This document shows, one piece after another, positions 36,552 through 49,236 of a stretch of DNA of 51,989 bases (the first letter of the stretch is position 1; every line of letters starts with the position of its first letter). A program made the position numbers and the translations under genes. The stretch spans positions 1 to 51,989 of the forward strand of contig JACQEN010000017.1 of assembly GCA_016200585.1 (NCBI GenBank), written 5' to 3'. The DNA comes from Deltaproteobacteria bacterium (GTDB taxonomy: Bacteria; Desulfobacterota; Binatia; HRBIN30). Under the pieces are notes generated by a model. The model saw only the letters and a list, made by a program, of their open reading frames with translations. It did no database searches and was not told the DNA's origin.

Positions 36552-39500
36552 CTATTCCAAGTAGCCCAATGCTCGCATTCGTTCTTTCACGCCTTCGTCT
36601 TCCACCGGTACGCGCTTGGCGTCGCTGGGTCGCGACGGCAATGTTGCCTGCCAGTGCTCGACTGCAGACAGAAGTCGGGTGACGACGTCGGGGTGATCCG
36701 CGGCGACATCGTTGTGCTCTCCAGGGTCGGCATCGAGGTCGAAGAGCTGTCGCCGAGCAACGGCATCCGCGGAGCTGATCAATTTCCATTTTCCGTCATG
36801 AACACTTCGCAGATTCGGTCGCGGCGGATGGAGCTCGGAGTAGACCGGACGTTCGCCTTGTGACGGTTCACCGCGCAGCAGGGGAACCAAACTGCGACCC
36901 TGACCGCTGCTGCCGGCATTGAGCCGCGCCAATTGTGACAGCGTCGGATAGACGTCGACGAGGTTGACGGCGGCGTCGACGCGTTTGCCGCGTGCCAGTG
37001 CCGCCGGCCAACGCACGATCAGGGGAATGTGGACGAGCTCCTCGTACAGCGTATGGGCGTGGCCCCAGCTGCCGTGATCGCCGAGCTCTTCACCGTGATC
37101 GGCGGTGACGATCAGCAGCACGTTGTCGTCAAGCAGTCCGATTTCTTCCCCCAGCTGGCGAAAGTGATCGTCGAAAAAACTGGTATCGGCGAGATACAAG
37201 GCGCGCCCGTGGCTCCGCGTGGCGGGATCGGGGTGAGCCAACCTGCGACGTAGCTCGGCAACCGGCGCCGCGACGGGAAACTGCCTGCGCCAGCGATCGT
37301 AATCGGGCGCGTAGCGGCTCAGCCAAGGTTGTCGGGGCTCGTAGGGATCGTGTGGATCGAAGTAGTGGATCCACAGGAAGACCGGCCGTTGCTTCCAGGC
37401 GGTTTTCCAGTCGCTGCCGAAGGTGCTTTCGAGCTGCGCTTCGACCTCGCGATTTACCGCGGGCGCGGGCTTGAAGTCCGGCGCGCTGTAGTGATCGAAG
37501 CCCTGCGCGAAGCCGAGTGCGGCGGCCAGGTGCAAGTTCGACGGCACGCCGATCGTCGTATAACCGGCGGCTTGGAAGGTCTCGGCGAGTGTGGTCAGCG
37601 AGTCGGCGAGCACATCCTGGTTGACGATCTGACCTTCACGAGCGACGCCTGTAACGATGCCGTGTACACTCGGCATGAGGCCGGTGAACAACGAAGCCAT
37701 CGAAGGCGCCGTCCACGAGCTCGGCGCGTAGGCGTGATCGAAGCGTATCCCGTCTGCCGCCAGCTGCTGCACGAACGGCGTCGAGGGCAGCTCCGAGGCA
37801 CTGTCCGACACGGCGTCGGCGCGCAGCGTATCGACGGTGACCAACACCACGGAGGATGGAGTGGGCCAATCGGCATGCGTCTGCTTGTTCAGTGGCGGCG
37901 CGAGTCGCGAACGTAAGGCGGCCAGGCGTTGCCGCGCCTGTTGGCTGGCGTCGCCGTCGGGCGCAAGCTTGAGAATGGCTTCGAACTGCGCCGCAGCGGC
38001 GGCAGGCTGCCCGCTTTCTTCGAGCAGCTCGCCGTAGTTGCTGCGCGCGTTGATGTACTCGGGTCGGCTTTCGACGGCTCGCCGCATCAGCTCCAGAGCG
38101 GCGGTCGTTTCACCCTGGTTGTTGCGCAGAAGTGCAAGGTTGTTGAGCAGACGTGCGTCGCTCGGATAGATGCTCAGCATCGCTTCGTAGATCGCCGCAG
38201 CCTGAGCCGCGTCGCCTTGGTCCATCTCGAAGGCGGCATAGGCGCTGGCGATGCGCAGATCATTCGGCCGATCGGCAATGGCGCGCTGGTACTGTTGCTT
38301 CGCCGGCTCGACGTCGCCGCGGTCACGAAAGATTTCAGCGGCGTTGAAGTAGATGTCGGCGTAGCCGCTTGCGTCGTTCAACAGAGGCTGCAAGAGCTTC
38401 AGAGCGTCATCGGCGCGTCCGGTGATGCGATAGAGATAGGCCAGGTTGTTCAGCGCTGCGGCACGCCCGGAGCGGGCCTCGTGGGTGATGCGTTCTTGCA
38501 GCTCGATGGCGGCTTCGGGATGACCATTGACGACGTGCCATAGTGCTTGCGACGACAGCACGGAGTAGTTTTTCGGGTCGAGCGCTGCGGCGCGTTCGAT
38601 GGCTTGCGAAGCCTCGTGCAGATTCTTCTTTCCCAGATGGTACGTGGCAAGATTGCCCCATAGCAGGGTTGCCGTCGGGCTTTGCTTGAGCGTCGTCGTG
38701 AGGAATGTCAGCTCGTCGCTCCATTGGCGATTGCGCCGGACGCTCACCAGCAGTGCCGTCAGAACGACGGCGGCAAAAACTCCGGCGGCGGCGAAGCGCA
38801 GGCTTTTCTGGCTGGTCATTCTTGACCATCCTGCGACTGCGACCAGACCGATCAGCGCCACGAACGGGAACGACGGGAAGTAGCAAAAGCGCTCGGCCAT
38901 GACGTTTCCCATATCCGCCGGAGCGGCCAGGCGAGTGAAATTGGCAATCGGGGCGAACGCTGAAATCAACAAGAGCGTGGCGAGCCAAACCCGTCGATCC
39001 CGCCGCCCGGCCGACATGACCAGGGCGGCGAGGCCGCCGAGAAACGCGACGCCGAGCCAAAGCCGCGGGTCGAGCGCGCCGGTGACGTAGGGATTCTGTA
39101 CGTAGGCGCTGAGAGCGATCGGCGCTGCCAGCCATGCAAGGTAACGCAGTAGCAGCGCCGGAAGGCTCAGCGTGACCATCGTCAGCGAATAGCCGGGCAG
39201 GGTTCCCGGAAGCGGCACATGGATGACCCACAATCGCCAGATCCCGTAGAGGGCGACCAGTGCGATGTGCGGCGCGAGACGTACGGCGACCGCTTTCCCA
39301 TCGCGCGTTCCGCTGTACCAGTGAACGGCAGCCAACCAAGCCAGCGCGACCACGCCCATCTCCTTTGCCAGGAGCGCCGCCGCAAACGCCAGCAGACCGC
39401 ACCAGCGCCGCCATCGTGCTTCGAATCCGGATCGCCGGCTGGCAGAAAGATCGAGCGCGACGGCGACGACCGCAAACAGAAACGCCAGCAAATCGGTGCG

Positions 39501-39962
39501 ACCGGCAATCCACGCCACGTTTTCCGTGTGGATCGGATGCACGGCGAACAGCAAGCCGGCGACGGCGGCGGCAACCAGCGACCAGCCCAACTGCAGGAGC
39601 AGCGACACCGCCAGCACACTGCAAGCGCCGTGCAGGAGCACGTTGGTGAGGTGATAGCCGAACGGTCGCAGGCGCCAGAGGCTGTAGTCGATGAGATACG
39701 ACACCGTGGTCAGCGGGCGATAGTAGCCGTACGGCAAATCGTCTTCGTTGCGATCGAAGAAGTCGTGCGTGAAGATTTCGCCCAGCGCGCTCCACGACTT
39801 GATGGCGCGGTCGTCGACGATGAGCTTGCGATCGTCCCACACGAAACCGTTGGTCAAGCTGTTGGCGTAGGTCGCCAAGCTCGCCGCCAACACGGCGGCA
39901 AGCAGCACGCGTCGGTGGAGGTGTGGCATGCGTCGTTGCCCGCTGTGAAGTTGGTGATCCAT
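36552..39962 (-). CDS. Fusion: TMTC-like GT-C glycosyltransferase, TPR repeats, sulfatase-fold domain
   Basis: A 1136-residue three-part membrane protein in one open frame. Residues about 15-410 carry roughly ten hydrophobic helices of a GT-C enzyme of TMTC/PMT type: the first-loop acidic pair in NGFVWDDRKLIVDD (D43/D44), YYRPLTTVSYLIDY and HPIHTENVAWIAGRTDLLA. Residues about 425-685 are about seven TPR units (AAALNNLAYLYRITGRADDA and similar). Residues about 700-1136 are an alkaline-phosphatase/sulfatase-superfamily domain: VVLVTVDTLRAD, WTAPSMASLFTG with Thr751 at the nucleophile site, WIHYFDPHDPY and TADHGEELGDHG with Asp955/His956 metal ligands, ending in the family-typical ERMRALGYLE. 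ATG 39962 follows the upstream stop by two bases. Its role is inferred: surface glycan or protein modification with chain-end editing. Confidence 0.88.
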   Translation of the reverse strand: MDHQLHSGQRRMPHLHRRVLLAAVLAASLATYANSLTNGFVWDDRKLIVDDRAIKSWSALGEIFTHDFFDRNEDDLPYGYYRPLTTVSYLIDYSLWRLRPFGYHLTNVLLHGACSVLAVSLLLQLGWSLVAAAVAGLLFAVHPIHTENVAWIAGRTDLLAFLFAVVAVALDLSASRRSGFEARWRRWCGLLAFAAALLAKEMGVVALAWLAAVHWYSGTRDGKAVAVRLAPHIALVALYGIWRLWVIHVPLPGTLPGYSLTMVTLSLPALLLRYLAWLAAPIALSAYVQNPYVTGALDPRLWLGVAFLGGLAALVMSAGRRDRRVWLATLLLISAFAPIANFTRLAAPADMGNVMAERFCYFPSFPFVALIGLVAVAGWSRMTSQKSLRFAAAGVFAAVVLTALLVSVRRNRQWSDELTFLTTTLKQSPTATLLWGNLATYHLGKKNLHEASQAIERAAALDPKNYSVLSSQALWHVVNGHPEAAIELQERITHEARSGRAAALNNLAYLYRITGRADDALKLLQPLLNDASGYADIYFNAAEIFRDRGDVEPAKQQYQRAIADRPNDLRIASAYAAFEMDQGDAAQAAAIYEAMLSIYPSDARLLNNLALLRNNQGETTAALELMRRAVESRPEYINARSNYGELLEESGQPAAAAAQFEAILKLAPDGDASQQARQRLAALRSRLAPPLNKQTHADWPTPSSVVLVTVDTLRADAVSDSASELPSTPFVQQLAADGIRFDHAYAPSSWTAPSMASLFTGLMPSVHGIVTGVAREGQIVNQDVLADSLTTLAETFQAAGYTTIGVPSNLHLAAALGFAQGFDHYSAPDFKPAPAVNREVEAQLESTFGSDWKTAWKQRPVFLWIHYFDPHDPYEPRQPWLSRYAPDYDRWRRQFPVAAPVAELRRRLAHPDPATRSHGRALYLADTSFFDDHFRQLGEEIGLLDDNVLLIVTADHGEELGDHGSWGHAHTLYEELVHIPLIVRWPAALARGKRVDAAVNLVDVYPTLSQLARLNAGSSGQGRSLVPLLRGEPSQGERPVYSELHPPRPNLRSVHDGKWKLISSADAVARRQLFDLDADPGEHNDVAADHPDVVTRLLSAVEHWQATLPSRPSDAKRVPVEDEGVKERMRALGYLE

Positions 39963-39964
39963 GT

Positions 39965-41362
39965 TCAGTCGCCGTAGCCGAGTTGGCGCAATCGCTCTTG
40001 CGCTTCGGGCGGCAGTTCGACGTTGTCGAGAGGTGGTGGGGCCGGCAGAGCCGCTGTCTGCTGCATCAGGGCCGTATCCAGGAGTGTGACGACTTGGGGA
40101 CGGTCGGTCACGCGATTTGTTCGCTCGTGCGGATCCTGCTGCAGGTCGAAGAGCTGGGTCGACTTTCCGGGGCCGTGAATCAACTTCCACTCGTTTTGGC
40201 GGATCGCCGTCCATTCCGAGTGTCCCCGCGTCAGGTGGAAAAACTGTGTCTGCGGCGCGCTGCTGCTGCCCTCCATCAGTGCGACGAGGCTTCGCCCTTG
40301 GGATGCGGTGGGGACTGGTAACCCGAGGAGCGCCATGAGCGTCGGATAGACGTCAAGCAAGTTTACCGGTGTGTCGACGCGGGAAGGTTTCAACACCCGT
40401 GGCCAGCGGATCAACAGGGGGACGCGGAGGAGCTCTTCGTACAAGGAATTCGCGTGTCCGAACCGCCGATGCTCCGCGAACTCCTCTCCATGGTCGGCGG
40501 TGAGAATCAGAAGTACGTTGTCGCGATCCAGTTGCAGTCTTTCGTTGAGGGCTCGCAACTGATCATCGAGAAAGCGCACTTCCGATTCGTACGTGCAGCG
40601 CAGCCGCTGCGTGAAGGGCGCCGTCTCGTCTTGAATTTGACCGATCAGCTCGGAGCCTTCGACCTGCACAAGATCCTCTTCGTTAATCAAAGCTCGCTTG
40701 GCGCACTCTCCGATCCAGGGCTGGTGCGGCGTGTACGGGACGTGCGGATCCATGTAGTGAATCCACAAGAATGGATGTGCCTTGGTCTCGTCGAGAACCG
40801 GGTTCTTGAAAGCCTTGCGGAGCTGCGCATAGAGGACGTCATTGACCGACTCGGCCGACGTCACTTTGGTGTTGGCGTAATGATCGAAGCCCTGCGCGAA
40901 GCCGAGCTCCCGCGCCAGATGTGGGTTGCTCGGCAGGCCGATGGTGACGTAACCGGCTTGCTTCAAGCTCTCGGCCAAGGTTGTGAACGACGATGACAGC
41001 ACAGGCTGACGGCGTACCGCGAGGTCGCGAATCACGCCGTGCGACTGCGGCGCGAGCGATGTGAACAGCGAAGCCATCGCCGGTACCGTCCATGAGCTCG
41101 GCGAATAGGCATTGCGAAACACGACGGCCTGCTGCGCCAGCTGCGCCAGGAAAGGCGTCTTGTCGGACCCGTCTTTCTCCAGTGACAGCGCGTCGGCGCG
41201 CAATGTGTCGATCGTGATCAGCACAACAATCGGACGTTCGTTGCGCCGTGGGTCGTGGCGTCGGAGCATGACGATGGCAAAGATCGCCCCGACCACAAGG
41301 GCGAGCAGGATCGCCGTCAGGCGCAACGTTTGCGGGCGTCGGCGGTTGGCCAAGAGAGTCAT
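39965..41362 (-). CDS. Membrane-anchored sulfatase/alkaline-phosphatase superfamily protein
   Basis: A 465-residue protein with an N-terminal anchor (about 13-32, LRLTAILLALVVGAIFAIVM) and a periplasmic sulfatase-fold domain: VVLITIDTLRADAL, SPSSWTVPAMASLFTSLAP, FLWIHYMDPHVPY, LILTADHGEEFAEH, and the C-terminal LFDLQQDPHERTN and RLRQLGYGD. It is about 40-50% like the C-terminal third of the downstream fusion by eye, so they are duplicates. Thr92 occupies the place of the formylglycine Cys/Ser (C-x-P-S-R), as in Thr-nucleophile phosphotransferases such as EptA or LtaS; sulfatase activity is therefore doubtful. ATG 41362 overlaps the upstream SGNH-like stop (ATGA). Confidence 0.88.
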   Translation of the reverse strand: MTLLANRRRPQTLRLTAILLALVVGAIFAIVMLRRHDPRRNERPIVVLITIDTLRADALSLEKDGSDKTPFLAQLAQQAVVFRNAYSPSSWTVPAMASLFTSLAPQSHGVIRDLAVRRQPVLSSSFTTLAESLKQAGYVTIGLPSNPHLARELGFAQGFDHYANTKVTSAESVNDVLYAQLRKAFKNPVLDETKAHPFLWIHYMDPHVPYTPHQPWIGECAKRALINEEDLVQVEGSELIGQIQDETAPFTQRLRCTYESEVRFLDDQLRALNERLQLDRDNVLLILTADHGEEFAEHRRFGHANSLYEELLRVPLLIRWPRVLKPSRVDTPVNLLDVYPTLMALLGLPVPTASQGRSLVALMEGSSSAPQTQFFHLTRGHSEWTAIRQNEWKLIHGPGKSTQLFDLQQDPHERTNRVTDRPQVVTLLDTALMQQTAALPAPPPLDNVELPPEAQERLRQLGYGD

Positions 41363-42453
41363 TCTGGTTTCCGAGCCCAGCCGCGGGTTACCAGGTCGTC
41401 TGCCAGCGCAGGCGCCGCGAGACCGTGGCCGACCTCCGACCAGTGTCCCCAGCGGAACAACGTCTTCGCGACCGATGGATCGGCTGCCCTGTCGGCAAAA
41501 AGCGGGCGCAGCGAGACGCAGGCGATGTTGTGTGCCTCGCAATACTTCGAGAAGAAGGCCTCACCCCAGGTCGGCCCGCGGCGTCTGGGGTTGTGCACTT
41601 CGCGTGGTACGGGGAGATAGACGAACAACGGCCGCGCACCGTTGCTTTGAATCGTGCGCACGATCTCGTCGAGAATCGCCGACGTCAGTTGGCGCACGTA
41701 CGTTTGCTGCGGTCGAGCTCCCTGGGACAGGCGTTCGCGGAAGATCTCGTAGGCATCGACGGTCTTGAGCCGGTAGACCTCAGCGTGCAGGACTTCCTCC
41801 GGCGTCGGCACGGGGACGTTGCGGAGCTCGAGCGCGCCGTTGAGCAAATCGAAGTACGGCTTGGCGAAATCGCGGAAAGCGAGCAGGTTGCGCGACATGT
41901 CGGCGGCTACGAAGCCGAGAATCACGACGTCGGGGTGATACTTTATGACGTCGCTCTGAAGGTAGAGGAGCATTTGATCGTGGCCGTAGCCGTGGACGCC
42001 GAAGTTCAGCACCTCGGCGTCGGCGAGTTGCCGGCCGAGCAGCGCCGCATAGGTCTGATCGTCTGATACCTGATCGCCGAACGTAAACGAGTCGCCGATT
42101 GTTGCGATACGCAGCCGTCCCGGAGTCTTCTCGTATTCGAACTCGTGCATGCCACGCAGACCGCGCGAGTTGGTGCTCAGCCAGCGGTTTCCGAAAGCGC
42201 GCGAGCGCGGTACGGCGGGACGCACGGCCCAGCCGCGTCGTGGGTCGTGAACGTCGAAGCGGTAGGCTGTGACTTCTTGACCGCGATGCCGATTGACCCA
42301 CAGCAGGCGCATCGCATCGCTGCCGCCGCCTCGCACATACCTCTTGAGAAACGTCGGCGATGAGAAGGCAATGCGCAGCGATCCTTCCAAGCTGAGGAAG
42401 ACGATGGCGAGGAAAGCCAGGAGTTTGAGATTGCGCCTGCCCTGGCTCGTCAT
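41359..42453 (-). CDS. Membrane-anchored SGNH-hydrolase-like protein
   Basis: A 364-residue protein with an N-terminal hydrophobic anchor (about 10-27, LKLLAFLAIVFLSLEGSLRI) and an SGNH/GDSL domain. Block I is IATIGDSFTFGDQV (nucleophile Ser), block II LNFGVHGYGHDQML (Gly), block III near ILGFVAADMSRN (Asn), and block V GHWSEVGHGLAAPAL (His with preceding Trp/Ser rather than Asp). The N-terminal GWAVRPAVP and STNSRGLRG pieces are common in glycan-acetylation or cell-surface SGNH proteins. It could acetylate or deacetylate the glycan made by its neighbours. Both ends overlap neighbours by four bases, so it is translated with them. Confidence 0.85.
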   Translation of the reverse strand: MTSQGRRNLKLLAFLAIVFLSLEGSLRIAFSSPTFLKRYVRGGGSDAMRLLWVNRHRGQEVTAYRFDVHDPRRGWAVRPAVPRSRAFGNRWLSTNSRGLRGMHEFEYEKTPGRLRIATIGDSFTFGDQVSDDQTYAALLGRQLADAEVLNFGVHGYGHDQMLLYLQSDVIKYHPDVVILGFVAADMSRNLLAFRDFAKPYFDLLNGALELRNVPVPTPEEVLHAEVYRLKTVDAYEIFRERLSQGARPQQTYVRQLTSAILDEIVRTIQSNGARPLFVYLPVPREVHNPRRRGPTWGEAFFSKYCEAHNIACVSLRPLFADRAADPSVAKTLFRWGHWSEVGHGLAAPALADDLVTRGWARKPE

Positions 42454-44207
42454 CGTTCGTCGCCCCTTACCGCGGTGTCGAGCTCGACTACGGCCAATTC
42501 GAATCGAGTCCCACCCCCCGGTAGCGGCTCATCCGTAGCGAGCAAGACCTTTCCGGGAAGATTTTCCGGGTCGGGCAGGCGGCCACGTCGGGCTGTGAGG
42601 ATGCACCACACGGGCGGCCGGAGCTGCCTTGCACGCGCCAGGGCCGCGCGCGGGCCTTGGCGGACGAAGGTTGCGTTCAGTCCGTCGATGTTGCCGAAGT
42701 AGTAGCGCGTCATCATATCGAATCGGGGTTGCGGCGTGTTGACCACCAGCGTTCCTTGCCGGCTGCCTTTGGCTTCTTTCAGAACCTCGCGGGCGCGTAC
42801 ATAGGCGTTGGCGTAGTCGGCCAATGCCAACGGTCGGGCCGCACTGAGCAAGCTTGCACACCCGAGCGCGATCAACACCGGAGCGACGGTGAACAACCGG
42901 GTGCGCAGAAACCGCGCGCCCTGTCCGTCGGTCTGTTGCGAGCTCGATGCACGGCGAAACCACCAGGCCGTGAGCACTGCGGCAGAGCACGCGACCAGCA
43001 AGGTCGCCAGCCGCCCGAAGGTCGTAAGCGCCAACTGCGGCCGGGTGATACTCCACAACGCAAATGGATGAAGCAGCGGACGCTGTTGCCAGATGAGCGC
43101 CGCAGCGAGCGCGATGACTGCGGTCGTCAGACGCCAAGTCGCGGCCCAACGTGGTCGTTCGTCGCGATCGAGCAGGAGACGCGAAGCGCTAACCGCCAAG
43201 AACGGAAACAATGGAATCAGGTACCATTGATTGGCGCGGCGCAAGCCGAGACACAGGGCCAAGGCGAGGACGCCGACCCAGACGAGCACGACGACGCTGC
43301 CGAGGTCGCGTCGGCGCATCGCCTTGCGCGCGTCTTCCAGCAGCCCGCCGATTGCGAGGATGGTCCACGGCGAAAAGCCCGCCAGCAAAGTCGTGAAATA
43401 CAAACTGGCGGCCGATTGCACCGAATGTGAGCCGGCCTTGAACGGGCGATGCAGTACCTCGACGCCGATGTATTGTGTCCAGAAGCGGCGCCCGTGCAGC
43501 GCGGCCATCGGCAGCACCCACCCCAGGTTCAGCGCCGCAAAAACCACGACGCACGCGAGCAGCTGTTTCTTCGCCGGCCGCTTTGCGCGGGGCACCGCCA
43601 GGAGTGAAATCGAAAACACAACGGCGGGGATGATGCCCGCCAGGTTCTTCGCGTTCGACGCCATGGCCGCGGTTGCGGCACACCACGCCCAACCACGTTG
43701 CGTGCGCACCGCACGCACGAACAGCAGCGTTGCGACGACGAAGCAGAGCACCATCAAGCTGTCGAATTCGCCGGTACGAGCGCCGTGGGTGTAGAGGAAC
43801 GGGTATGTGGTGGTCAGAACAAATCCGGCGAGGGCACCGACAGCGACGCCGCCGAGCGACTCGCCGAGCAGGTAGGTGGCCAGAACCGCTGCTACGGCGA
43901 ACGAGGCAGCCCAGACGCGCGTCGCGAAGTCGGTGACGCCGAAAACCCGGTACGCGACGACGGTCAGCCACAGCGGCAGCGCCTGTTTCGAGAAGAACGG
44001 GCCGCCGAACGCCGTCGGGTGCCACCAAGCGCTGCTGCGATACATCTCGAGCGCCGCTTGCGCCTGCCAGGCTTCGTCGAGCTCGTGCACGCCGTTGCGG
44101 CCCAGCCCGTAGAAACACAGAGTTGCGGCCAGCAGCCCGAGCGCCGCGAGTACCAGCCAGCGCCGCCGAGCCGGCGGCGGCGAGGGTAGAAGATTGGGTT
44201 CACTCAT
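42450..44207 (-). CDS. GT-C/PMT-like glycosyltransferase (ArnT/GT39/GT83 type), copy 2
   Basis: A 585-residue polytopic membrane protein with about eleven hydrophobic segments. The first periplasmic loop holds GVHELDEAWQAQAALEM, the acidic catalytic-type pair of GT-C enzymes that use polyprenyl-phosphate sugars, then FGGPFFSKQALPLWL, the usual second motif (F..KP/QALPLWL). GVTDFATRVWAASFAVAAVLATYLLG is also family-like. A C-terminal soluble domain of about 130 residues (residues about 440-585) is present. It is paralogous to the gene upstream (shared LCFYGLGxNGVHExDEAW). Its start overlaps the upstream stop by eight bases and its stop overlaps the SGNH-like start. Confidence 0.9.
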   Translation of the reverse strand: MSEPNLLPSPPPARRRWLVLAALGLLAATLCFYGLGRNGVHELDEAWQAQAALEMYRSSAWWHPTAFGGPFFSKQALPLWLTVVAYRVFGVTDFATRVWAASFAVAAVLATYLLGESLGGVAVGALAGFVLTTTYPFLYTHGARTGEFDSLMVLCFVVATLLFVRAVRTQRGWAWCAATAAMASNAKNLAGIIPAVVFSISLLAVPRAKRPAKKQLLACVVVFAALNLGWVLPMAALHGRRFWTQYIGVEVLHRPFKAGSHSVQSAASLYFTTLLAGFSPWTILAIGGLLEDARKAMRRRDLGSVVVLVWVGVLALALCLGLRRANQWYLIPLFPFLAVSASRLLLDRDERPRWAATWRLTTAVIALAAALIWQQRPLLHPFALWSITRPQLALTTFGRLATLLVACSAAVLTAWWFRRASSSQQTDGQGARFLRTRLFTVAPVLIALGCASLLSAARPLALADYANAYVRAREVLKEAKGSRQGTLVVNTPQPRFDMMTRYYFGNIDGLNATFVRQGPRAALARARQLRPPVWCILTARRGRLPDPENLPGKVLLATDEPLPGGGTRFELAVVELDTAVRGDER

Positions 44208-45924
44208 CTTTGCGTCCCAACGGCGACGGCTCGATTATCTGCACGACCATCACGTGGTACGCCTCGCCGGGCGTCCCGGTCTCCGCGCCTGCGAAGATCA
44301 CTCGACCGGGATACTCGGCCGGCAATGCGGCGATCGGTCGGCGCGACACCAATACGGCAAAAGCCGGGAGAGGCAGGTGGCGGGCTCGTTCGAGCACCGC
44401 ATCCGGTTGCGACCAGTGATATTCGACGCGTGCCGGCGGCAGCCCGGCCATGTAGTAGCGAGTCAGACGATCAGGCCCGGCGCGCGCCAGGTCGACGGCC
44501 AAATGCGCGGTTTGCCCGGGTGCCGCTTGTAGTATGGCATCGACGGCGCGCACATAGACGTTCGTGTAGGTTGTCGAACCCAGCGGCCGCAGCACACTCA
44601 TCGTGGCGCTGGCGGTAAGAACGAGCAGGCACAACCACGTCAGGCGGCGCGCTGCCCTTCTCAAGATCCACCAGCCGGCGAGCAGAGTTGCGGTCAGGGC
44701 GGCGGCTGAGCTGCCGCTGTTCCAGGTGAGCCGTAGCGGGCGGTCTTGGCTCCACAGCGCAAACGGATGTGCCTCCGGTTGCAGCTGCAGCAGCAGCGCC
44801 GCGCCGATCAGCGCAACGCTGGCTGCGGTTCGCCAATGTCTCAGCCAGGATGGTCGCTCCGACTCGTCGACCAAGAAGGTGGCTCCAATGACGGTTAGGA
44901 ACGGAAAGAGCGGGATCACGTACCAGACGAGTGCCTGGCGTAAGACGGTACACAAAAGCAAGCTCAACACCCCGATCCACACCAGCAGCACCATGCTGCC
45001 GGCATCGCGCTGGCGAGCGCGGTAGGCCGCATCGGGCAAGGCGGCGATGCCCAGAAAAAACCAGGGGAAGAAACCTCCCGCCAGATTCCGGGAATACACG
45101 GCAACAATCGACGAGACGATCTGTCCATGGCCGAGACCCGGCCGGCCCAGCACCTGGTGTCCGAGAAAATTTGCCAGAAAGGGTCTGCCGTGAACGACGA
45201 CCATCGGCACCAGCCAGGCGAGGTGAATGGCGGCAAATACTGTTCCCAGGCGTAGCCACTGCCGACCCGTCGGGCGATGTGGTGATTTGGAAATCAGTAA
45301 TGTGATGATGAAAACGAAGACCGGAGCCGACGCTGCGAAGTTCTTGGCATACGACGCGAGCGCGGTTGCGACGCTCCATAGTACCCAGCCGCGGTTGGTT
45401 TCCAGCGCGCGTAGAAAGAGCGCCGTCGACAGAGTGAATGAAAAAACCATCAAGCTGTCGAATTGCACCGTGCGCGCGCAGTGGCGGAAGACGAACATGT
45501 AGCTGGTGGCGAGGGCAAGACCGGCAACAAATCCGGCGCGTCGCCCGCCAATCCGTGTACCCAGCGCACTGGTCGCAAGCACCGCTGCGACCGCAAAGAA
45601 GGCCGCCCAGAAACGTGCGGCAAACACAGTTGGTCCAAGGAGTCGGTACCCCGACGCAATGAGCCACAAGAACGGTGCAGGCTTTTCGAAGTATGGGTTG
45701 CCGAATTGCGTTAGCCGCCACCAGTGGCCGTCGCGATAGAGCTCGGCGACCGCCTCGGCGTGCCAGGCTTCGTCCTGTTCGTGCACGCCGTTCGAGCCCA
45801 GGCCGTAGAAGCACAGGAAACCTGACAGTAGCAGCAAGACGACCGGGCCTGCCCAAGTAGGAAGGCGGTTCAACCACACTCTACTGCCGGAATAGTCCTT
45901 CCGGTGAACCCAGCCCGTCGACAT
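44200..45924 (-). CDS. GT-C/PMT-like glycosyltransferase, copy 1
   Basis: A 574-residue membrane protein, first of the operon, built like its downstream paralog: GFLCFYGLGSNGVHEQDEAW and AEAVAELY, then GNPYFEKPAPFLWLIA (FEKP, the classic ArnT/PMT_2 second motif), TVQFDSLMVFSFTLSTALF, and about eleven helices. The donor would be a polyprenyl-phosphate-linked sugar and the acceptor a lipid, glycan or protein. ATG 45924 is preferred over GTG 45933 because of a GGTGGGG site before it; both are weak. The C-terminal part ends in MVVQIIEPSPLGRKDE. Divergent with the Thr-Pro repeat protein, with a 158-base intergenic region between. Confidence 0.9.
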   Translation of the reverse strand: MSTGWVHRKDYSGSRVWLNRLPTWAGPVVLLLLSGFLCFYGLGSNGVHEQDEAWHAEAVAELYRDGHWWRLTQFGNPYFEKPAPFLWLIASGYRLLGPTVFAARFWAAFFAVAAVLATSALGTRIGGRRAGFVAGLALATSYMFVFRHCARTVQFDSLMVFSFTLSTALFLRALETNRGWVLWSVATALASYAKNFAASAPVFVFIITLLISKSPHRPTGRQWLRLGTVFAAIHLAWLVPMVVVHGRPFLANFLGHQVLGRPGLGHGQIVSSIVAVYSRNLAGGFFPWFFLGIAALPDAAYRARQRDAGSMVLLVWIGVLSLLLCTVLRQALVWYVIPLFPFLTVIGATFLVDESERPSWLRHWRTAASVALIGAALLLQLQPEAHPFALWSQDRPLRLTWNSGSSAAALTATLLAGWWILRRAARRLTWLCLLVLTASATMSVLRPLGSTTYTNVYVRAVDAILQAAPGQTAHLAVDLARAGPDRLTRYYMAGLPPARVEYHWSQPDAVLERARHLPLPAFAVLVSRRPIAALPAEYPGRVIFAGAETGTPGEAYHVMVVQIIEPSPLGRKDE

Positions 45925-46011
45925 CGGCCCCACCGGCTTGTCATACCCTCAAAGGTTGAGAAAATCGAAGTCGTGAGTCGGGTCTCGGGGCATTGCAGGC
46001 AGAGTTTGCAT

Positions 46012-46082: not shown

Positions 46083-46676
46083 ATGATGATGTCGCGGGGA
46101 CGATACCGTCGAGGGGTGGAAGCGGCTGCGTTGTGCAGTCTGGTTGCCCTTTGCATGCTTTCAGCAACCGCTGCTGTAGCGCAGATCTCGGACGGCCAGA
46201 AAAAGGCGAGCTCCAAGCTGGTGTTCGACAAGTTCGACGACTCAGGCGACGCGCCGGTCGGTTGGACCGCATATTTCAACCTTACCGTCGCCAGCCAGAC
46301 GCCGACTGAAACCCCCACCCAAACCCCAACGGAAACCCCGACCCAAACGCCAACGAACACTCCAACTCAGACTCCAACCAGTACACCGACGCAGACACCG
46401 ACGATCACGCCGAGCGGAACGCCGACGCGGACGCCTTCGGTAACACCCAGCACAACACCGACGCTTGCCCCGAACGAAAACACCGGCGGCGACCAGTTCT
46501 GCCACGATATGTTCGACAACGACGGCGACGGCTTGATCGATTGCGCCGATCCCGACTGCGCCCGCGTGGCTCCGTGCGGTGCGCCGGCACCGACCGCGTC
46601 GCCGGCTGGTTTGATCTTGCTGGTGATCGTTCTCGGCGGACTCGCCGGGCTGCGCCTCAATTGGCGGCGACCTTAG
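46083..46676 (+). CDS. Exported Thr-Pro repeat protein with C-terminal membrane anchor
   Basis: A 197-residue surface-type protein. Signal peptide from MMMSRGRYRR to about residue 34 (ATAAVAQ); a short domain (about 35-71); a stiff low-complexity spacer of about 57 residues (about 73-130) made of TPTQ/TPTE/TPTN/TPTS units; a Cys pair around DNDGDGLIDCADPDC (about 145-159), resembling Ca-binding 'DNDxDGxxDC' loops; and a C-terminal PTASPAGLILLVIVLGGLAG helix followed by RLNWRRP, a tripartite anchor like PEP-CTERM/IPTL-type sorting signals. A GGGGGG site precedes the ATG triplet. It is transcribed divergently from the GT-C operon, so its Thr-rich spacer is a plausible O-glycosylation target. 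That link is inference. Confidence 0.8.
   Translation: MMMSRGRYRRGVEAAALCSLVALCMLSATAAVAQISDGQKKASSKLVFDKFDDSGDAPVGWTAYFNLTVASQTPTETPTQTPTETPTQTPTNTPTQTPTSTPTQTPTITPSGTPTRTPSVTPSTTPTLAPNENTGGDQFCHDMFDNDGDGLIDCADPDCARVAPCGAPAPTASPAGLILLVIVLGGLAGLRLNWRRP
46299..46472 (+). repeat. Coding tandem repeat (about 12-base units, Thr-Pro spacer)
   Basis: Units of ACNCCNACNCAN/GAN type recur in tandem and are translated as TPTQ/TPTE/TPTN. The units diverge at third positions, so this is an old, protein-selected repeat rather than a recent slippage tract. Confidence 0.8.
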
Positions 46677-47026
46677 CGGTTCCGGATCGCCTTTCGCCGA
46701 AGTCGAAGCCGCGGAGCGGCGGTCGCTCTGCGTCATACGACCGTTGAGCTGACCGCAGCGACCGAACGCCAGGCTGATGCACCGTTCGCGTTGCGATCCG
46801 AGCCTTTGCCGCGTCTGCAAATTGACTCATCTCGGAGCAGTCGATAGAGGCTCATGGGCCGTGCTGTACCGCGTTTCAGATCCAGAGCGTTCAACCGACT
46901 CCGACGTATCCACCGATCCCCTCCCGCCATGCTGAAACGATCGCTATTGCTCTCTACGATCATGACAAAACATCTGTGTACCGGGCCAACACCCGCCGGT
47001 GGCAGCGACGATCAGGAGGTCTACCC
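46677..47026. other. 350-base non-coding gap before the ExbB operon
   Basis: I see no convincing gene here; the short ORFs lack ribosome sites. A TTGACT (46822-46827) with TAGAGG 17 bases later is a possible weak promoter. The last bases contain the AGGAGGT site of the exbB-like GTG start. Confidence 0.35.
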
Positions 47027-47668
47027 GTGGAAGGCTTGAGTATTCTCGACATGATCCAGTCAGGCTGGATCGCCACTTACCCGTTGATCCTGTTTTCGCT
47101 GGCGACACTGACGATCATCTTTGAACGGGCCTGGTCGCTACGCGGCATTGTGCCCGAGAGCTTGGCTCTGGCTGAGTCGATTCGCCCGCCGATCGAAAAG
47201 GGCGACTTCGCCGGCGCGTTGCAAGCGACCCAGGCGAAGGCGGAAACCCCGGCGGGTCGGATCTTCGGCGACGTTCTGGCGCGCCACAAGTCGGATTCGA
47301 TGGAATACCTATCGGATCTGACGGAAGACAAACGCTTCGAGGAAGTCGAAGCCCTGAAGGGCCCGCTGTGGATTCTCGGCACCGTCTCCAGCTCGGCGCC
47401 GTTCATCGGCTTGTTCGGCACCGTCGTCGGCATCATCAAGGCCTTTCACAACATGGCTCTCATGGGCAGCGGCGGCTTCTCGGTGGTCGCGGCCGGAATC
47501 TCGGAAGCGCTCATCGCCACCGCACTGGGTCTCGGCGTCGCCATTCTCGCCGTTATCTTCTATAATTTTTTTGAAACGCGGATCGAACGAATCGAAGCGG
47601 CGCTGACGATTGCTTCGAATCGTGTCCTCGACTCGATTCACGTCGGGAGACAAACCAATGGCGTTTAG
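47027..47668 (+). CDS. ExbB/TolQ/MotA-family proton channel protein
   Basis: A 213-residue inner-membrane protein, a stator-type proton channel subunit. Three membrane helices: about 17-38 (ATYPLILFSLATLTIIFERA), about 119-142 (SSAPFIGLFGTVVGIIKAF) and about 160-182 (ISEALIATALGLGVAILAVIF). The sequence APFIGLFGTVVGIIKAF and GISEALIATALGLGVAI are the ExbB/TolQ signatures. GTG 47027 is chosen because AGGAGGT precedes it by seven bases. The exbD-like gene overlaps its end by 11 bases. Together they should convert the proton gradient to work on the following VWA protein. Confidence 0.93.
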   Translation: MEGLSILDMIQSGWIATYPLILFSLATLTIIFERAWSLRGIVPESLALAESIRPPIEKGDFAGALQATQAKAETPAGRIFGDVLARHKSDSMEYLSDLTEDKRFEEVEALKGPLWILGTVSSSAPFIGLFGTVVGIIKAFHNMALMGSGGFSVVAAGISEALIATALGLGVAILAVIFYNFFETRIERIEAALTIASNRVLDSIHVGRQTNGV

Positions 47669-48074
47669 CTCCCGGCATCGCGGCCATAAGGGCATCGTTG
47701 CCGAAATCAACATCACGCCGCTGACCGACATCTTCCTGGTGTTGCTGATCATCTTCATGGTCACCAGTGCCGCGATGGTCGAGTCGGGTGCCAAGATCAG
47801 CTTGCCGCAGGTCGACAGCACCGCCTCGCAGCCGCGCGAGATCACCATCACGGTCACTCCCAACAACGACATCTTCGTCAACAGCCAAATGACGCCGTAC
47901 GAAGAACTGGAAAACGCACTACGCGGGCTGGTGAGTGCGCGGCCCGATATCCCCGTCGTTCTCGAAGGTGATCGTGAAGTTCTGTTCGGGCAGGCGGTAA
48001 AGATCCTGTCAATCGCGCAGAAGGCCGGCGCGACACAGATCGCCATCGCCGCCGAACGCCGTCAATCTCAGTAG
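47658..48074 (+). CDS. ExbD/TolR-family protein
   Basis: A 138-residue single-pass protein. The start GIVAEINITPLTDIFLVLLIIFMV contains the TolR/ExbD proton-conducting Asp in the helix (PLTDIFLVLLIIFM), followed by the periplasmic domain (REITITVTPNNDIFVNSQMTPYEEL, then VLEGDREVLFGQAVKILSIAQKAG). ATG 47658 starts inside the exbB-like end. It is typical in length. It forms the stator with the exbB-like product and lies 7 bases before the VWA gene, which takes the place a tonB or tolA gene often has. Confidence 0.94.
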   Translation: MAFSSRHRGHKGIVAEINITPLTDIFLVLLIIFMVTSAAMVESGAKISLPQVDSTASQPREITITVTPNNDIFVNSQMTPYEELENALRGLVSARPDIPVVLEGDREVLFGQAVKILSIAQKAGATQIAIAAERRQSQ

Positions 48075-48081
48075 CCTTCCT

Positions 48082-49236
48082 ATGGCGCAGGCCTCTCCGC
48101 CACCTGAGCGTTTTGATCCGTGGGCGCCCAATCCGGGCCGTACGGTGCGCTGGCTCGCTTTGTCGACGGTCTTTCATGCTGGGTTGCTGTTCTTGTTTGC
48201 GACCGTGACGCTTACGGTGATCAAGAAGATCGAGGAGATCAAGGTAAAGATCGACGATACCGTGCCGGGTGAAGAGACGCTTGAAGACGGAGCGCCGTCG
48301 CTGCGCGACCTTGCCGGCGCCTTGAAAATGGAAAAGACGATACCGCAGCGGGCGGTGCCGAGCGGACCCGCAATCCAGGGCGTGCGCGCACCGGAGCTAC
48401 CGCGCATCGGCGGTTTCGGGCCGAAGCTCGGCGAAGGGCCGGTGGTCGACGTCGCCAGCGCCCTGTCTCTCGGTGCCGGCGGCTCCGGCGCGGGCGGGAT
48501 CGGCAGCCTGGCGGGGAGCGGCAACTTCGGCGACTACGTCTGCGGTCTGCGCAAGGTCGGCCTCGATGTGGCGTTGGTGATCGATACCACCGACAGCATG
48601 CAGTTCGTCATCGACGACGTGCGCGCCAAGCTGCAAGACCTCATCGGCACGCTGCAACGCATGGTGCCGACGACGCGCGTCGGTATCGTCGTCTATCGCG
48701 ATAAGGGTGACGACTACGTCGTCAAGTGGAGCGATCTCAGCTTCAGCACGCAAAAGCTCACCGAATTCCTGTCGCACATCAGCGCCGACGGCGGCGGTGA
48801 TTGGGAAGAAGCGGTGAAAGAAGCGCTCGACGCCGCCGTGCACGAGCTCAAGTGGCGCAAGAACTCGAAGAAGGTGATCATCCTGGTCGGCGGCTCGCCG
48901 CCGCACCCGTGGGAGATGGATGACGTGATGGACATCGCCCGCAACTTCCGCAAACAGGGCGGTTACATCAGTGCCATCGACGTGACCGTGCGGCAGCATG
49001 AGATGTTCGACAAGACGATGTGGCGCTCTCTGCACGGGTCGCAGCCGTACCAGCCGGCGCCGATGCCCGAGTTCTATAAGGAGGTCTCCAAAGTTTACGG
49101 CGAAATCGCCAAGAACGGCGACGGCGAGCTGCTACAGCTTGGAGAAAACAAAACCCTGGTGCGCGAGATCTTCGAGCTCACCTTCGGCTCGCGCTGGAAG
49201 ACCGAGCTGGCGAAGTACATGAAGGAGCTGTCGTGA
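48082..49236 (+). CDS. TonB-like anchored protein with a von Willebrand A domain
   Basis: A 384-residue protein. N-terminal single anchor at about 24-46 (WLALSTVFHAGLLFLFATVT), a His in the helix (VFHAGLL) as in TonB/TolA-type anchors that contact ExbB/ExbD, then a Pro/Gly-rich linker (about 60-150, SLGAGGSGAGGIGSLAGSG), and a VWA domain (about 160-384) with MIDAS D168-T-T-D-S172 (ALVIDTTDSMQFVIDD), VGIVVYRDKGDDYV, and SPPHPWEMDDVMDIARNFR. Where TonB has an outer-membrane-binding C-terminal domain, this has a metal-dependent adhesion/contact domain. Its stop overlaps the TPR gene's GTG by four bases. Confidence 0.88.
   Translation: MAQASPPPERFDPWAPNPGRTVRWLALSTVFHAGLLFLFATVTLTVIKKIEEIKVKIDDTVPGEETLEDGAPSLRDLAGALKMEKTIPQRAVPSGPAIQGVRAPELPRIGGFGPKLGEGPVVDVASALSLGAGGSGAGGIGSLAGSGNFGDYVCGLRKVGLDVALVIDTTDSMQFVIDDVRAKLQDLIGTLQRMVPTTRVGIVVYRDKGDDYVVKWSDLSFSTQKLTEFLSHISADGGGDWEEAVKEALDAAVHELKWRKNSKKVIILVGGSPPHPWEMDDVMDIARNFRKQGGYISAIDVTVRQHEMFDKTMWRSLHGSQPYQPAPMPEFYKEVSKVYGEIAKNGDGELLQLGENKTLVREIFELTFGSRWKTELAKYMKELS

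Follow-up and report, generated by a model that had tools for sequence, protein, structure and literature searches.

A conserved pairing of TMTC-like GT-C proteins with Thr-type sulfatase-fold enzymes within a five-gene envelope operon

The window analyzed here, a 51,989-nucleotide (nt) stretch of contig JACQEN010000017.1, carries on its minus strand (36552-45924) five genes back to back that had been predicted to encode a fixed complex for building and editing a surface glycan. We find that the conserved unit inside this operon is smaller: a TMTC-like protein, composed of a polytopic glycosyltransferase domain of the GT-C fold and a TPR arm, together with a sulfatase-fold enzyme bearing threonine at the nucleophile position (Thr-type). 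This is an older partnership, which occurs as neighboring genes across distantly related bacterial phyla and as a single fusion protein in the window. Comparison of gene neighborhoods across relatives went against the original prediction for the set as a whole, whose genes occur separately, and left only the TMTC-like/Thr-type pair as conserved.

The TMTC-like/sulfatase pair and its fused form

Scanning GTDB with the sulfatase domains of the window yielded 80 loci, the nearest sulfatase-domain relatives being L109 from Acidobacteriota (50%), L110 (46%), and L111 (43%). A TMTC-like GT-C/TPR gene directly adjoins the sulfatase gene in L109, L110, L111, L112, L114 (Brocadia), L119, L121, and L128, and lies about 2.5 kb from it in L118. 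These nine relatives are distributed over Acidobacteriota, Myxococcota/Deltaproteobacteria, Planctomycetota, Lentisphaerota, Schekmanbacteria, and unassigned metagenome-assembled genomes. The TMTC gene precedes the sulfatase gene in L109, L111, and L119 and follows it in L110, L112, L114, L121, and L128; because both gene orders occur, the link between the two is not merely one inherited arrangement. The paired genes often overlap by 4-8 nt, and orthologs of the L109 pair in two further Acidobacteriota (G504 and G510, with sulfatases 76% and 68% identical) keep a 4-nt overlap. Of the 80 sulfatase loci, 15 have a same-strand neighbor with seven or more transmembrane (TM) segments, compared with 16 of 416 genes used as a control (Fisher p = 1.3e-5), and so do nine of the 20 best-scoring sulfatase loci. 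The sulfatase sequences of L115 and L107 are identical.

The same Acidobacteriota also contain paralogous Thr-type sulfatases that adjoin GT-C proteins of the PMT_2 family instead of TMTC, indicating that the wider theme is a GT-C protein combined with a Thr-type enzyme. In two loci from this phylum (L212 and L213), a Thr-type sulfatase gene is situated between genes for PMT_2-type GT-Cs, and in L213 the same-strand neighbor overlaps it by 4 nt; this arrangement is a sister kind of module.

The last gene of the operon (36552..39962, minus strand) encodes the fused form of the pair, a protein of 1136 amino acids (aa) with Pfam matches to TPR, Sulfatase, and SGSH_C. Residues 1-430 (38673..39962, minus strand) form a TMTC-like GT-C membrane domain; the 14 sequences aligned for it all share the GT-C DD motif of the first outer loop (D43 and D44 in the fusion). 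Residues ~426-695 (37878..38687, minus strand) match Pfam TPR families and appear as helical repeats in the predicted structure, with a predicted local distance difference test score (pLDDT) of about 70-90; the TMTC part of the same model is of low confidence. Residues 702-1136 (36555..37859, minus strand) constitute a Thr-type sulfatase-fold domain (PF00884). The TMTC-like domain aligns collinearly with a protein of its own genome that is TMTC_DUF1736-positive, at 39% identity over 152 aa (E = 2e-23), which bears out the kinship implied when the protein was first described as a TMTC fusion.

The two halves of the fusion are also 42% identical to the L109 TMTC, covering residues 11-656 of 678, and 51% identical to the L109 sulfatase, covering residues 27-461 and excluding the signal peptide. 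At the junction, an 18-residue linker stands in place of the TMTC tail and the sulfatase signal peptide. Phylogenetic analysis places both sulfatase domains of the window with L109, L110, and L111 in one clade (support 98; 100/97 in a second tree), with the fusion domain as sister to the L109 group (95/89), while the membrane part of the fusion is sister to the L109 TMTC (99). Both halves hence pair with the same Acidobacteriota module, and the fusion looks to be derived from a TMTC-then-sulfatase operon. Loss of the partner's signal peptide at the junction makes the fusion look genuine rather than a sequencing error, and we rejected an assembly or frameshift artefact since the reading frame is open and that signal peptide is gone. 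Such a fusion also accords with a TPR arm that is periplasmic to begin with, as published TMTC topology has it (PMC6801728).

TMTC genes also occur in other contexts. The same genome carries two overlapping TMTC genes with no sulfatase nearby (L232, G000:C30, 3605-7179), the first with a true TMTC_DUF1736 signature, and in a genome of the same phylum a 15-kb stretch holds six TMTC-like genes, all on the same strand (L200, G327:C265, 2162-16910).

A threonine in place of the formylglycine residue

The gene preceding the fusion by a 2-nt gap encodes the second Thr-type enzyme, SULF (39965..41362, minus strand), which is 44% identical to the sulfatase domain of the fusion. Derivation of SULF from a PMT_2/sulfatase module was considered and rejected, as SULF falls in the TMTC-adjacent clade and not in the PMT_2-adjacent one. 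The description of SULF as an anchored sulfatase-fold protein holds for its fold, with Pfam matches to PF00884 and SGSH_C and a predicted structure of pLDDT 90, and for its anchor, a single N-terminal TM segment; it does not extend to the formylglycine type. Alignment with solved sulfatases and relatives shows the formylglycine motif C/S-x-P-x-R replaced by T-V-P-A-M or T-A-P-S-M. The predicted nucleophiles, located by alignment, are Thr92 of SULF (codon at 41087..41089, minus strand, in the context SSWT-V-P-A-M) and Thr751 of the fusion (37710-37712, minus strand). Across 35 sequences drawn from many phyla, no substitution occurs at Thr92, Asp290, His291, His202, Asp205, His207, or His303, and Asp52 is retained in at least 90% of them.

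With Thr in place of Cys or Ser and Met in place of the motif Arg, no formylglycine is expected, and neither sulfatase domain of the window is, as judged from its sequence, a formylglycine sulfatase. In MCR-1, the conserved zinc is bound by Glu246, Thr285, Asp465, and His466, with Thr285 acting as the nucleophile (PMC5175174), and an active-site Thr is common to LtaS, EptA, and YejM (PMC7576196). SULF exhibits the Thr plus Asp/Glu, Asp, and His ligand pattern of EptA/LtaS-type enzymes, to which its residues would correspond as in MCR-1, so that phosphoryl chemistry, either transfer or hydrolysis, is the most likely activity. We consider it highly improbable that these proteins are true sulfatases in a locus for sulfated-glycan breakdown or, alternatively, dead pseudo-sulfatases: the PF00884 and SGSH_C names and the S1 sulfatases that are the best PDB matches of the SULF model point that way, whereas the absence of C/S-x-P-x-R, the invariant Thr and retained metal ligands, which are unlike a dead enzyme, and the lack of any glycoside hydrolase among the genes examined argue against it. 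A group of the genes annotated as sulfatases beside glycosyltransferases is thus probably not composed of sulfatases.

The assignment to EptA/LtaS-like chemistry does not imply close relationship. The window domains and their relatives score far below the cut-offs of the EptA, YejM, and MCR family models, and SULF, with its single N-terminal TM segment, lacks the multi-TM domain that EptA/LtaS-type enzymes carry; many sulfatase relatives have TM- or lipobox-like N-termini. Phosphonate monoester hydrolases are also among the PDB matches of SULF. An editing or turnover role, in which the Thr-type domains add no phospho-group and act only as hydrolases, trimming groups linked through phosphate or dephosphorylating a carrier while a glycoprotein matures, would fit a fold nearest to hydrolases (choline sulfatase and phosphonate monoester hydrolase), the SGSH_C domain, and the Mg-dependent phosphatase activity of the Thr-type protein YejM (PMC7576196). 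The linkage to a glycosyltransferase fits transfer as well, however, and sequence cannot separate the two; we regard a purely editing role as unlikely.

The operon, its distribution, and its surroundings

The operon layout matches the original prediction exactly, with five coupled genes whose junctions, in order of transcription, are overlaps of 8, 4, and 4 nt followed by the 2-nt gap. The first two genes encode paralogs, as foreseen: GT-C1 (44200..45924, minus strand; 574-577 aa, the ATG lying at the 45924 end with a GTG also present at 45933) and GT-C2 (42450..44207, minus strand; overlapping GT-C1 by 8 nt) are 43% identical, and both exceed the Pfam PMT_2 cut-off, GT-C1 with 40.8 bits against 26.1. 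Within its own genome, GT-C1 strongly matches no protein other than GT-C2. The sole PDB relative of GT-C1 is ArnT (5ezm, E = 7e-8), with which the DE motif after TM1 aligns. A profile-based comparison between the TMTC set and the GT-C1/GT-C2 pair gave no usable signal. Hydropathy counts agree with the prediction that all five proteins are membrane-bound, with many TM segments in GT-C1, GT-C2, and the fusion and a single N-terminal one in SULF and in the SGNH-like protein encoded between GT-C2 and SULF.

The ArnT relationship raises the possibility that the operon modifies lipid A or another lipid, the ArnT-like GT-Cs and Thr-type enzymes adding a sugar and a phospho-group to an outer-membrane lipid, as with ArnT and EptA, and the TPR and SGNH proteins acting as adaptors. 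The MCR-1/EptA-like Thr and ligand pattern and the TM- or lipobox-like N-termini of many relatives are also in keeping with such a role. On the other hand, the GT-C pair reaches only 41 and 50 bits against the NCBIfam ArnT equivalog cut-off of 567, the sulfatase domains have neither their own multi-TM domain nor a score approaching the EptA/MCR models, and the TMTC/TPR partner belongs to a type that glycosylates proteins. Taken together, we judge lipid modification to be improbable.

The SGNH-like protein (41359..42453, minus strand; 4-nt overlap) has a Lipase_GDSL_2 match (Pfam) and a membrane anchor, but its active site is degenerate. Alignment with 40 relatives indicates that Ser, Gly, and His are retained while the oxyanion Asn is replaced by Ala and the catalytic Asp by Trp, and so it departs from the conserved blocks of SGNH hydrolases (Ser, Gly, Asn, and His plus Asp). 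With this damaged active site, the protein probably plays an accessory role. In two genomes of the same order, SGNH-like genes cluster with sulfatase-fold genes, several together (G003:C103, loci L071 and L072; G014:C135, locus L078).

We searched an order sample of 15 genomes, including the source genome, and, for the GT-C and fusion proteins, a phylum sample of 395 genomes. Elsewhere in the order there was no ortholog of the SGNH-like protein (best match 37% over part of its length), of the GT-C pair (best 33%), or of the fusion, for which the phylum sample likewise gave none. At E ≤ 1e-25, GT-C1 had no match outside its own genome except at 33-34% identity in three of the 395 phylum genomes. 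A GTDB motif scan for the GT-C pair (85,462 genomes) returned 133 pattern matches and no relative, although its two strict 8-residue patterns make this weak evidence of absence. None of the five genes was present in the Lnt neighborhoods of six related genomes; a conserved insertion site between Lnt and its neighbors was rejected, as no synteny is held in common. The five-gene set has so far been found only in this genome, and the predicted fixed complex of five parts is not supported, given genes that occur separately and a set that recurs in no other genome searched.

This distribution bears on whether the operon arose by chance, with five envelope genes gathered in one lineage and little linking them beyond co-expression, such that only the TMTC/sulfatase pair cooperates. 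That the set is found nowhere else and that GT-C1, GT-C2, and the SGNH-like protein have no conserved partner speak for such an origin, whereas the tight coupling of all five genes and the recurrence of GT-C with Thr-type enzymes, as in the Acidobacteriota Thr-type sulfatases beside PMT_2 GT-Cs, speak against it; we view a chance operon as possible but doubtful.

The source assembly is 5.6 Mb in 369 contigs and 85% complete. A mis-binned contig is not supported: the Lnt encoded beside the operon is 40-59% identical to the Lnt of ten order members, indicating that the contig belongs to the organism. This Lnt and an F420H2-dependent quinone reductase family protein are encoded downstream on the same strand. 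Divergently upstream, 46083-46676 (plus strand) encodes a secreted protein that combines a Thr/Pro-rich stretch (TPTQTPTETPT...) with an acidic disulfide repeat and, at its C-terminus, a TM segment and an Arg tail; this protein is a possible glycosylation acceptor. Further on, adjoining genes with MotA/TolQ/ExbB, ExbD, and VWA domains, followed by a TPR protein gene (46976-49236, plus strand), make up an energised envelope cluster, in which the VWA third gene is unusual.

A proposed module and its relation to known systems

Our preferred reading, for and against which we see about equal grounds, is that the pair forms a periplasmic module: a lipid-sugar-dependent glycosyltransferase and its Thr-type partner, a member of the alkaline-phosphatase superfamily, would work on one shared envelope glycan or glycoprotein. 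In this operon, the module is expanded. In this model, the GT-C domain would take a sugar from an undecaprenyl-phosphate donor at the outer face of the inner membrane and place it on an envelope acceptor, which could be a secreted protein, a glycolipid, or a polymer held by the periplasmic TPR arm. The tethered Thr-type domain would then act on that molecule, adding or removing a group linked through phosphate. The two ArnT-like GT-Cs, along with SULF, might extend or decorate the same product, and the SGNH-like protein would be accessory. The predicted building and editing of a surface glycan thus remains plausible for these periplasm-facing enzymes, though not as the work of a fixed five-protein complex.

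Several observations weigh against this model. The pair is patchy: such a sulfatase is found in four of 80 genomes of the L110 order and five of 37 of the L109 order, and not always beside a TMTC gene. Nor does the pair have a conserved acceptor gene beside it. In both overall fold and sequence, the Thr domains resemble S1 sulfatases and phosphonate monoester hydrolases more closely than EptA/LtaS, so that hydrolysis may be likelier than transfer. Lastly, TMTC_DUF1736 (PF08409), the Pfam signature of TMTCs, has no match in the fusion, and an own-genome search at E ≤ 10 found it only in the two tandem genes on C30.

More tentatively, and with doubt outweighing confidence, the module could represent a bacterial system, widespread and as yet undescribed, that relies on a TMTC-like glycosyltransferase together with a Thr-type enzyme to produce a phospho-modified glycan on proteins or lipids of the envelope, in parallel to glycosylphosphatidylinositol (GPI) assembly, the window holding a fused and expanded form. 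As predicted, no named system with this set of enzymes turned up in the literature searched, nor did any report of the TMTC/sulfatase pair or fusion, subscription papers and preprints being outside the scope of that search. The component families are known; their pairing and fusion appear to be new. Prokaryotic TMTC homologues have no assigned function, and a conserved neighbor with a natural fusion supplies them with a definite partner and with a biochemical prediction that can be tested, namely phosphoryl chemistry on the TMTC product.

Each component resembles a known family in part. TMTCs belong to the ArnT/PMT clan and act as O-mannosyltransferases; uncharacterized prokaryotes have homologues of full length, with both glycosyltransferase and TPR parts (PMC7801869). 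The fusion shares with TMTC1-4 (CAZy GT105) and these homologues a polytopic GT-C domain, the DD motif in the first outer loop, and C-terminal TPRs on the outer face; it differs from TMTCs in the missing TMTC_DUF1736 match and in its C-terminal Thr-type domain, which is unreported for TMTCs in the literature searched. GT-C1 and GT-C2 resemble the lipid-sugar-dependent transferases of the ArnT/PMT_2 kind in fold family and DE motif but miss the ArnT model cut-off, and their nearest relatives in the phylum sample have about 34% identity or less. The sulfatase domains share the whole fold and C-terminal subdomain of S1 sulfatases and phosphonate monoester hydrolases (PF00884, SGSH_C), yet differ from S1 sulfatases in having Thr as the predicted nucleophile and Met in place of the motif Arg; with EptA/MCR-1, LtaS, and YejM they share this Thr and the Asp/Glu plus Asp-His metal ligands, but they are distant in sequence and have no multi-TM domain of their own. 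In eukaryotic GPI assembly, GT-C mannosyltransferases and ethanolamine-phosphate transferases alternate, and this pathway may serve as the closest working analogy for the module proposed here, with no claim of membership.

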